This document shows positions 5,196-39,068 of a DNA stretch of 60,611 nt, piece after piece. Origin of the DNA: Eubacteriaceae bacterium (GTDB lineage Bacteria > Bacillota > Clostridia > Eubacteriales > Alkalibacteraceae); NCBI GenBank assembly GCA_013335935.1, contig JAAXUP010000006.1, positions 1 to 60,611 of the forward strand, given 5' to 3'. Positions within the stretch are counted from its first letter, which is position 1; each line of letters begins with the position of its first letter. Under the pieces are notes generated by a model, which was not told the DNA's origin, searched no databases, and saw only the letters and a program-made list of their open reading frames with translations. The position numbers were made by a program, and so were the translations under genes.

Positions 5196-6530
5196 ATGGA
5201 AACAAATTTACAGGCTCTTTGGAACGAAACTCTCACAATTATTGAGGATGAGCTAACTCAAGTGAGTTTCGAAACATGGTTAAAGAGAATCGAACCCATC
5301 TCTTATCACAACAACGTAATTGTTTTAGGAGTAGAAAATGACTTTACAAAAGGAATCCTTGAGGCAAGATATGCTGTTTTGATAGGGAATGCGTTGAAGC
5401 ATACCACCGGCAGAAATATTATAGTAGAATTTGTGATTCCTTCAGCAGGAGGACCCTCCGGATCTTCCCATATAAAATCTGAAAGCAACAATTTTATCGA
5501 CAGCACTAACTTGAATCCAAAATATACATTTGAGACCTTCGTAATCGGAGAAAGCAATCGTTTTGCCCATGCGGCATCCGTTGCTGTGGCAGAGGCGCCT
5601 GCCCAAAGATATAATCCACTATTCATCTATGGCGGAGTCGGGCTTGGAAAAACCCATCTTATGCATGCTATCGGACACTATACTCTGGAACAATGGGCGA
5701 ATAAGAAAGTCGTTTACGTGTCCTGCGAAAAATTCACCAATGATTTTATCGATTCTATCCAGAATAAGAATAACATTTCTTTCAGGAATAAATACAGGAA
5801 TGTAGATGTTCTTTTGATTGATGATATCCAATTCCTGGCTGGAAAAGAAGGAACCCAGGAAGAATTTTTTCACACCTTCAACGCTCTCCACGAAGCAAAC
5901 AAGCAGATCGTCATCTCAAGCGATCGGCCTCCCAAAGAAATACCCACTCTTGAGGAAAGACTCAGTTCCAGGTTCGAATGGGGTCTGATAACGGATATTC
6001 AAGCTCCTGACCTGGAAACCAGAATAGCCATTCTTAAAAAGAAGGCAAACACTGAAAATATCAATATCGGAAATGACGTCCTGGTTTTTATTGCCTCGAA
6101 GGTTCATTCAAATATCAGAGAACTTGAGGGAGCACTTATCCGGGTCAATGCCTTTAGCAAACTTACCAATCAAAATATCAGCGTTGAGCTTGCAAACGAA
6201 GCCCTGAAGGAGCTGATTTCAAACCGGAAGCCTGATATCATAACCGTGGATCTCATCAAAGAAGTAACGGCCAAATACTTTAATATCGAGGTTGATGATT
6301 TTAATCTTAAAAAAAGAACAAAGTCAATCGCTTATCCAAGACAGGTGGCCATGTACATCACACGCACCCTGACTGAGATGTCTCTGCCAAAAATTGGAGA
6401 TGAATTTGGAGGTCGGGATCATTCAACGGTCATTCATGCTCTGGACAAGATCAAAACGGATATGGAGAGGAATTTTGATTTCAGAAATTTGATAAACAGG
6501 ATCATCAAGGATATAAAAGGAAATAATTAA
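5196..6530 (+). CDS. dnaA: DnaA, chromosomal replication initiator
   Basis: AAA+ initiator that binds DnaA boxes and melts oriC. At 444 aa it has the usual domains: I (about 1-80), a short linker II, the AAA+ domain III starting at [17 protein letters not shown] (Walker A about residue 150) with Walker [10 protein letters not shown], and a C-terminal DNA-binding domain IV with the signature [12 protein letters not shown] (about 406-417). It starts at ATG after AGGAGGATATGCG. It is flanked on both sides by DnaA boxes, which implies autoregulation. Confidence 0.99.
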
Positions 6531-36704: not shown

Positions 36705-37610
36705 ATGGTCAAGGTAGTAGGTGTGAGGTTTAAGAAGGCGGGGAAGATATATTATTTTGATCCCCATAACCTGGAAGTAGATAAAGGCGACAACGTCATT
36801 GTTGAGACCGCCAGAGGAATGGAGTACGGTCATATTGTACTGGGTACAAAGTTTGTGACCGATGAGGAGATCGTTTCTCCCATAAAGCCTGTCATCAGAA
36901 AGGCTACTCAGAAGGATGACAAAGTATATGAAAAAAACAAAGAAAAAGAAATAAAAGCACTGGAGATATGCAAGGAAAAGGTCGAGAAGCATGAACTGGA
37001 TATGAAGCTGATCGATGTGGAGTATACCTTCGATAATAATAAGGTCATCTTCTATTTCACAGCTGAAGGCAGAGTTGATTTCCGGGAACTGGTAAAAGAC
37101 CTTGCTTCCGTATTTAAAATCAGGATCGAACTCAGACAGATCGGCGTAAGGGATGAAGCAAAAATGCTTGGTGGATTAGGTCCCTGCGGAATACCTCTTT
37201 GCTGTTCGAAATGGTTAGGCGATTTCCAGCCGGTTTCTATAAAAATGGCAAAAGAGCAAAACCTGTCGCTGAATCCCACTAAAATTTCAGGGATCTGTGG
37301 CAGACTCCTTTGCTGCCTGAAATACGAACAGGATTTTTATGAAGCAATAGGGAAAAAACTCCCTCATGAAGGACAGCTGGTTACTGTTACAGATGGTAAA
37401 GGGATCGTCTTTAAGGTGAACGCTCTTAGAGAAACCGTTACCGTTAAACTGGAAGGGGACGATGCGGTCTTAAAAGAATATCACCTGGAAGACATTAAAG
37501 TCGAACGTTCCGGCTGCGGGAAAAACTGTCCAAAGAAAACGCCAGAAGTTGCTTTCAAGGAACCCCTTTCCCCAGAGCAGAAGAAAGAGCTTAAAAGTTT
37601 AGAGGAATAG
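36705..37610 (+). CDS. ricT: RicT/PSP1 (YaaT) family protein
   Basis: 301 aa. PSP1 C-terminal domain; in B. subtilis RicT joins RicA and RicF in an Fe-S-bearing complex that affects RNase Y processing and development. Conserved cysteines are clear: GPCGIPLCCSKW and CGRLLCCLKYEQ (about 165-205), matching the Fe-S ligand set. The C-terminus has another cysteine pair, CGKNCPKK, less usual. It starts one base after holB. Confidence 0.94.
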   Translation: MVKVVGVRFKKAGKIYYFDPHNLEVDKGDNVIVETARGMEYGHIVLGTKFVTDEEIVSPIKPVIRKATQKDDKVYEKNKEKEIKALEICKEKVEKHELDMKLIDVEYTFDNNKVIFYFTAEGRVDFRELVKDLASVFKIRIELRQIGVRDEAKMLGGLGPCGIPLCCSKWLGDFQPVSIKMAKEQNLSLNPTKISGICGRLLCCLKYEQDFYEAIGKKLPHEGQLVTVTDGKGIVFKVNALRETVTVKLEGDDAVLKEYHLEDIKVERSGCGKNCPKKTPEVAFKEPLSPEQKKELKSLEE

Positions 37611-37682: not shown

Positions 37683-37865
<183 letters not shown>

Positions 37866-37877
37866 GAAATGCGAAAG

Positions 37878-37900
37878 ACCTCTGAATAGAGGTTTTTTTT
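37878..37900 (+). terminator. Terminator after ferredoxin
   Basis: ACCTCT-gaat-AGAGGT followed by TTTTTTT. Confidence 0.88.
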
Positions 37901-38110
37901 ATGCAAGGAAAATTCGACTAGCTTGCTGGGGTCCAAATTTTCCTTGCATATGAGAACAAATGACGAAGGTATTTGTTTGAATGCCGACAGGAAAATTCGA
38001 CTAGCTCGCTGGGGTCCAAATTTTCCTTGCATATGAGAACAATGGCGAAGGTATTGTTCGAATGTAGTGCAAGGAAAGTTCGAATGCCGCAGGAAAGTTC
38101 GACTAGCTCG
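37901..38110 (+). repeat. Dispersed double-hairpin repeat, tandem copies 2 and 3 plus a fragment
   Basis: Hairpin B1: 14-bp perfect stem ATGCAAGGAAAATT (37901-37914)/AATTTTCCTTGCAT (37936-37949), 21-base loop. Hairpin A1: AACAAAT (37955-37961)/ATTTGTT (37971-37977), loop GACGAAGGT. B2: GGAAAATT (37990-37997)/AATTTTCC (38019-38026). A2: GAACAAT (38037-38043)/ATTGTTC (38053-38059), loop GGCGAAGGT. A broken third B copy spans about 38069-38110. B loops contain GACTAGCTCGCTGGGGTCC (one base differs in B1). Confidence 0.88.
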
Positions 38111-38115
38111 AAATC

Positions 38116-38241
38116 TTATACACATATCCACAGGAACCATGAGGGGGTATGTGGATAACAAGTGATAGGATGTTGAGAAAGTAGGATAAAATCGTTGAGT
38201 TATCCACATTCTGTGCACAAAATAATGAAAATTGTGGATAG
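38116..38241. promoter_or_regulatory. Cluster of five DnaA-box-like sites away from oriC
   Basis: TTATACACA 38116-38124, ATATCCACA 38124-38132, TGTGGATAA 38150-38158 (perfect, minus strand), TTATCCACA 38200-38208 (perfect), TGTGGATAG 38233-38241 (minus strand, one mismatch). This density equals that of the oriC halves. It lies directly upstream of the methyltransferase gene and may titrate DnaA or control that gene. Confidence 0.75.
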
Positions 38242-38315
38242 GTCACAACATTTGGTATAGAACATATGTTACGTACAAGATACAAAGCTGTAAAAGGAAG
38301 AAAGGCGGGGAAACT

Positions 38316-39068
38316 GTGGAAAAGTACCTAATTAATGCACAGGAGAGAGTGGATAAACTACACATCCATGGTCTGAATATTATCCAGAACCAGGATTTTT
38401 TCCGTTATGGAACGGATGCCGTGCTGCTTTCCTGGTATGCCGCTGGGAAGATCAACAGAAAGCTTAAAGTAGCTGATCTGGGAACAGGCAGCGGCATCAT
38501 CCCTATTTTACTTTCCTTATCAAAAGCAGGGGAGATCCATGGTCTTGAACTGCAGCCTCATGTAGCCGATATGGCCAAAAGAAGCGTAGAGATGAATTCC
38601 CTTACCCCAAAAATTACGATCATACAAGGGGATGTCAGAGAGCTTCCGGAATTTTTTCTCCCCAATACCTATGATATGGTCGTTTCAAATCCACCCTATA
38701 TGAACGCTAAAGAAGGATTTAAGAATATCAAAGACACTGTCGCCGTTTCGAGGCACGAGCTGCAATGCACCATGAAGGATATCGCTTTTGCTGCCAAAAG
38801 ACTCCTGAAGACAAAAGGGCGATTCGTCCTTGTTCACAGACCCAACAGGATCGTGGATATTTTTTATGAAATGAGGCTGCATAATATCGAACCTAAAGCC
38901 ATGATTCTTATTAAACCCAAAAAATCAAAAGAAGCCAACATGGTGATCATAGAAGGTCTTAAAGAAGGAAAGCCAGGACTAAAAATTCTCCCGGATATCG
39001 TTGTGTATGAAGAAGACGGGAGCTACACCAAGCAGATTCTGGAGATCTATGGGAAAGAAAGCAGCTAA
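38316..39068 (+). CDS. tRNA1(Val)-N6-methyltransferase-like (TrmN6/YabB) enzyme
   Basis: 250-aa class I SAM-dependent methyltransferase. SAM motif LKVADLGTGSGIIP (about 45-58), ELQPHVADMAKR and the adenine-N6 catalytic NPPY in VVSNPPYMNAKEG are visible, matching the B. subtilis YabB group. The start is GTG at 38316 after AAGGCGGGG; an in-frame ATG at 38232 would lie inside the last DnaA box and is rejected. A DnaA-box cluster occupies its promoter region. Confidence 0.88.
   Translation: MEKYLINAQERVDKLHIHGLNIIQNQDFFRYGTDAVLLSWYAAGKINRKLKVADLGTGSGIIPILLSLSKAGEIHGLELQPHVADMAKRSVEMNSLTPKITIIQGDVRELPEFFLPNTYDMVVSNPPYMNAKEGFKNIKDTVAVSRHELQCTMKDIAFAAKRLLKTKGRFVLVHRPNRIVDIFYEMRLHNIEPKAMILIKPKKSKEANMVIIEGLKEGKPGLKILPDIVVYEEDGSYTKQILEIYGKESS

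Follow-up and report, generated by a model that had tools for sequence, protein, structure and literature searches.

A candidate DnaA-binding locus: conserved DnaA boxes at trmN6 in one order of Clostridia

The locus considered here raises the question of what a dense group of DnaA-box-like sequences does in front of a methyltransferase gene, outside the replication origin. The group lies in a window of 60,611 nucleotides (the whole stretch of DNA analyzed) at positions 1 to 60,611 of contig JAAXUP010000006.1 from a member of the Eubacteriaceae. We consider it probable that the cluster is a DnaA-binding locus of the DBC class, which would regulate, and probably repress, trmN6 and would also sequester DnaA. 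The restraint of replication initiation in Clostridia that lack YabA has been little studied. The trmN6 cluster provides a conserved, precisely placed candidate site in many genomes, and sister lineages without it are natural controls.

RESULTS

Boxes were called at no more than one mismatch to TTATNCACA, the consensus of E. coli and B. subtilis. Direct reading and the scan yielded six DnaA-box-like 9-mers in the 126 bp from 38116 to 38241. A sequence-only reading had counted five boxes there, two of them perfect; the two perfect copies of TTATCCACA were recovered, a third box fits TTATNCACA, and the total had to be raised to six. The group extends past 38241, to 38356. The region of the six boxes is intergenic, in line with the non-coding label that reading had given it; a gene for a small ferredoxin ends upstream (stop codon at 37865), and the methyltransferase gene trmN6 begins downstream (GTG at 38316). 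The features are as follows.

36705 to 37610, plus strand: ricT (yaaT), the upstream neighbor
38116, plus strand: box TTATACACA, overlapping the ATATCCACA box by one base (direct pair, 38116 to 38132)
38124, plus strand: box ATATCCACA, second of the direct pair
38150 to 38158, minus strand: perfect box TTATCCACA; most family f1 members have a box at the equivalent place
38200 to 38208, plus strand: perfect box TTATCCACA at core position 0; 31 genomes have it almost unchanged
38212 to 38220, minus strand: weaker box TTGTGCACA, core position +12, conserved only as GTG.A.AA
38233 to 38241, minus strand: box CTATCCACA at core position +33, likewise almost unchanged in 31 genomes
38259 to 38273, no strand assigned: palindrome AGAACATATGTTACG, resembling a LexA box, situated after the DnaA boxes and ahead of the trmN6 start; f1 genomes conserve it
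38315 to 38323, minus strand: box TTTTCCACA, containing the trmN6 GTG start; most f4 genomes have a perfect box at this place
38316 to 39068, plus strand: trmN6/yabB-like class I methyltransferase gene, 250 aa, GTG start
38333, plus strand: box TAATGCACA
38348 to 38356, minus strand: box TTATCCACT, within the first trmN6 codons, kept in all six f1 genomes

The product of the trmN6-like gene gave methyltransferase Pfam matches, and its best NCBIfam match was TrmN, under the equivalog cut-off. From these matches the gene probably encodes a tRNA-methyltransferase (TrmN6-like). A consensus promoter scan for trmN6 gave no match above chance, and the promoter was not located. In four of the five f1 genomes checked, the lexA promoters carry GAACNNNNGTTC/T boxes; together with the palindrome at 38259 to 38273, this leaves room for trmN6 being damage-responsive as well in f1, which it may be.

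Three partial copies of a dispersed repeat, AARTTCGACTAGCTNG, lie about 83 bp apart at 37900 to 38110. The repeat has hairpin-forming arms and recurs in dozens of genomic places. The block was considered as the origin of the DnaA boxes and was rejected, being a separate dispersed repeat.

The cluster reached a score of 9, compared with a best score of 4 per 130-bp window in randomized sequence (60 order-1 Markov versions of the window, 3.6 Mb in total). Counts in the whole genome of the organism (2.64 Mb, 268 contigs) were restricted to exact boxes and the spaced motif. TTATCCACA occurred 44 times, compared with 17 for the reversed control pattern. About 0.05 pairs of TTATCCACA within 64 bp are expected at random and three were observed, namely at the trmN6 cluster, in oriC2 (6574/6628), and on contig C213 at tsaD (gcp) (28060/28124). 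With three such pairs in the genome, equal clusters are uncommon, and the objection that they might abound by chance falls away. The 0/12/33 motif, searched with up to two mismatches, has a single occurrence in the genome, at the trmN6 cluster. The cluster is not a product of chance. It comprises at least three boxes at a mean spacing below 100 bp, outside oriC and above chance, as is expected of a cluster of the DBC kind.

The scan also showed an origin-like box density, in line with the sequence-only reading. Both the box motif and the density are like those of clostridial oriC1/oriC2 (C. difficile, PMC7561715), and such density would suit a second or auxiliary replication origin. However, an AT-rich unwinding element and a DnaA-trio are absent from the cluster: its best 40-bp stretch has an AT content of 0.73, compared with 0.88 in oriC1 and oriC2. 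The cluster shows no GC-skew minimum, and the oriC at dnaA is intact, with dnaA at 5196 to 6530; the GC skew reaches its minimum near 6.5 kb, and the dnaA-dnaN gap contains a DnaA-trio-like run. A second origin was rejected on the unwinding element, the DnaA-trio, and the skew, and we assign it practically no probability.

The upstream regions for the comparison of boxes were supplied by a TrmN6 search of 60 relatives. Conservation in close relatives, which the sequence-only reading had named as a check, was confirmed in all six genomes of the organism's own family (f1) and in most of family f4. The f4 genera with a cluster upstream of trmN6 are g7, g19, g13, g20, and g26, and the clusters in f1 and in these genera have about 6 to 11 boxes each. 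Family f2 has variant boxes, e.g. TTACCCACA. No cluster was found at trmN6 in genera g12, g17, g24, and g25 or in the f3 and f5 genomes examined, nor upstream of trmN6 in any of 45 Clostridia checked outside the order. Because there are f4 genera that have trmN6 and lack the cluster, the gene does not need the cluster.

A core of 42 bp aligns without gaps in 31 genomes. It consists of TTATCCACA on the plus strand at 0, a weaker minus-strand box at +12, and TGTGGAYAR on the minus strand at +33. Genera g13 and g20 have a cluster with different spacing, and relatives in genus g7 have an inverted form, TTATCCACATATNCACA, farther upstream, compared with the direct pair at 38116 to 38132. Judged from these alignments, the boxes and their spacing are under selection, confined to one order.

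The core boxes at 0 and +33 repeat each other in inverted orientation, and two-sided changes that preserve pairing were found in three genomes. Both observations would fit a hairpin in the RNA leader of trmN6, in which the inverted boxes would not be protein sites at all. However, six genomes have A-C mispairs, and the variants remain plausible DnaA boxes. The other boxes have no inverted partner, and no Rfam match was obtained. An RNA leader is a very improbable explanation of the cluster.

The sequence-only reading placed the cluster 32 kb from oriC, which is correct for this genome given the position of dnaA and the GC-skew minimum. In finished genomes the distance between dnaA and trmN6 was about 18 kb (G001), 172 kb (G027), 207 kb (G040 and G048), 548 kb (G035), 610 kb (G012), 665 kb (G057), and 884 kb (G008). 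Thus the cluster is 18 to 32 kb from oriC in f1, and it is 172 to 884 kb from dnaA in the finished f4 genomes. The neighbors of trmN6 differ as well. They are ricT and hisIE in f1, whereas g7 and g19 have a divergent 542-aa gene, convergent DnaI-like and DnaD-domain genes, and murA. A Suv3-like helicase gene lies beside trmN6 in G048, and trmN6 is inverted in G019. Across a range of 18 to 884 kb the cluster stays on trmN6, and proximity to oriC was not supported as a meaningful feature. By these gene orders, what is conserved is attachment to trmN6 and not closeness to oriC. The evidence for gene control is moderate and not decisive, because few breakpoints tested the linkage to trmN6.

At several f4 loci (L048, L051, L052, L053, and L059), trmN6 and its cluster adjoin two convergent genes, one for a DnaI/DnaC-like helicase loader and one for a DnaD-domain protein. 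Both kinds of gene act in replication initiation.

These distances bear on pure titration, in which the cluster would hold DnaA away from oriC without a meaningful effect on trmN6. The boxes are dense and of high quality, and in f1 they lie near oriC. An excess of DnaA boxes near oriC has been described in E. coli (PMC12371093). When six B. subtilis clusters were deleted together, initiation was reportedly early, and single clusters had weak effects on initiation (PMC5295017). However, f4 genomes do not preserve the distance to oriC, the cluster tracks trmN6, and titration has no need of a fixed spacing or of a box at the start codon. Pure titration is thus a minority possibility, to be taken seriously but clearly behind regulation of trmN6 combined with sequestration.

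Two further clusters were observed in the genome. One lies downstream of tsaD (gcp) at C213:28060-28215 (L040:3061-3216; also L044:3291-3446), with all boxes on one strand. Five of the six f1 genomes have it, as do f2 and a single f3 genome, and it is absent from the f4 genomes examined, most of which keep the trmN6 cluster. In G001 it is located between tsaD and an ABC-F gene, matching the gcp/ydiF DnaA site of B. subtilis. That B. subtilis has a strong DnaA site at this same gene points to some DnaA-box clusters being ancient and shared across Bacillota. The other cluster lies directly downstream of pyrG (CTP synthase) at C229:9886-10094 (L042:2887-3095; also L043, L047, and L050), followed by rho in f1 and by a large minus-strand gene in g7. 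Several DnaA-box clusters of Bacillota adjoin tRNA-modification genes, namely trmE, tsaD/gcp, ywlC, and now trmN6, which may be due to chance. A different spaced pair, TTATCAACAGTAAA...ATAATATCAAATAATCTGTGGATAA, is conserved in other families of Clostridia (f8, f45, f52, and f63; L060-L089) and is possibly an oriC element.

DISCUSSION

Boxes that overlap the trmN6 start point to regulation of the gene, a role that the sequence-only reading did not contain. In the mechanism that we favor, several DnaA molecules would bind the cluster jointly. The steps within the plus/minus/minus core are 12, 21, and 33 bp, or about one, two, and three helical turns, so that the bound molecules would all lie on a single face of the helix. 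With boxes occupying the 200 bp ahead of trmN6 and also its start codon, DnaA bound there should influence trmN6 transcription, most probably by repressing or tuning it. Repression is the likeliest sign because of the analogy with the trmE and ywlC regions of B. subtilis, DnaA-box regions upstream of these genes at which DnaA appears to repress (PMC4447404). DnaA that is bound would leave the free pool, so that sequestration would come with binding, and a modest contribution to titration is possible. The sequences themselves show that the cluster is present, rare, conserved, fixed in geometry, and attached to trmN6; that DnaA occupies it, in which sense it regulates trmN6, and how it might bear on replication timing are inferred.

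In f1 the core sits in the interval between ricT and trmN6. This interval corresponds to the place where B. subtilis encodes YabA, yabA being situated between ricT and yabB in that organism. No protein above the YabA cut-off (PF06156) was found in the genome of the organism or in any of 99 Clostridia genomes, and the controls, B. subtilis and L. lactis, were positive. The 0/12/33 core could be imagined as a dedicated DnaA-control complex of the YabA-less Clostridia in this order, resetting or restraining DnaA and tying tRNA modification to the replication cycle, but we regard this as unlikely.

A DARS/datA-like site would be a related case, in which a complex on the core exchanges or hydrolyzes the nucleotide of DnaA, or disassembles its oligomers, in bacteria without YabA. 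The negative YabA search and the geometry fixed in 31 genomes are in keeping with such a site. The order and orientation of the three core boxes, plus, minus, minus, are also those of the E. coli DARS1 and DARS2 cores, in which box II opposes box I and is in tandem with box III. The spacing differs, since both DARS cores, read from MG1655, are plus at 0, minus at 14, and minus at 26, compared with 0/12/33 at trmN6. Identity with DARS was rejected on this mismatch, and a DARS-like way of working is possible. E. coli datA likewise has several boxes outside oriC, and in this genome the trmN6 cluster is near oriC. However, datA is IHF-dependent, and datA and DARS hold their position relative to oriC (PMC4585315), whereas the trmN6 cluster moves with trmN6. 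In addition, the lack of YabA extends over the class, whereas a single order has the cluster. A DARS/datA-like function is therefore improbable, and regulation of trmN6 together with sequestration of DnaA remains the preferred reading.

The sequence-only reading had likened the cluster to datA, DARS, and DBC; of these likenesses, the one to DBC stood, that to DARS failed on spacing, and that to datA failed on position. Its remark that such clusters are rarely described in Clostridia agrees with the literature searched, which yielded no report of the trmN6 cluster. The search gave no link of clostridial DnaA boxes with yabB or of DnaA titration with clostridia, and DnaA and trmN6 were not joined in any paper found. 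Nor did it turn up DnaA binding data for these species.

The closest known counterparts are the DBCs of B. subtilis (trmE/jag, ywlC, gcp/ydiF, sda/yqeG, ywcI/vpr, and yydA). Like the trmN6 cluster, they are intergenic groups of boxes outside oriC, often over promoters. Two of their genes, trmE and ywlC, act in tRNA modification, and trmN6 probably does too. The yabB (trmN6) region itself is not among the top DnaA regions of B. subtilis (PMC4447404). The trmN6 cluster differs from the B. subtilis DBCs in that its core geometry is fixed across genera at trmN6.
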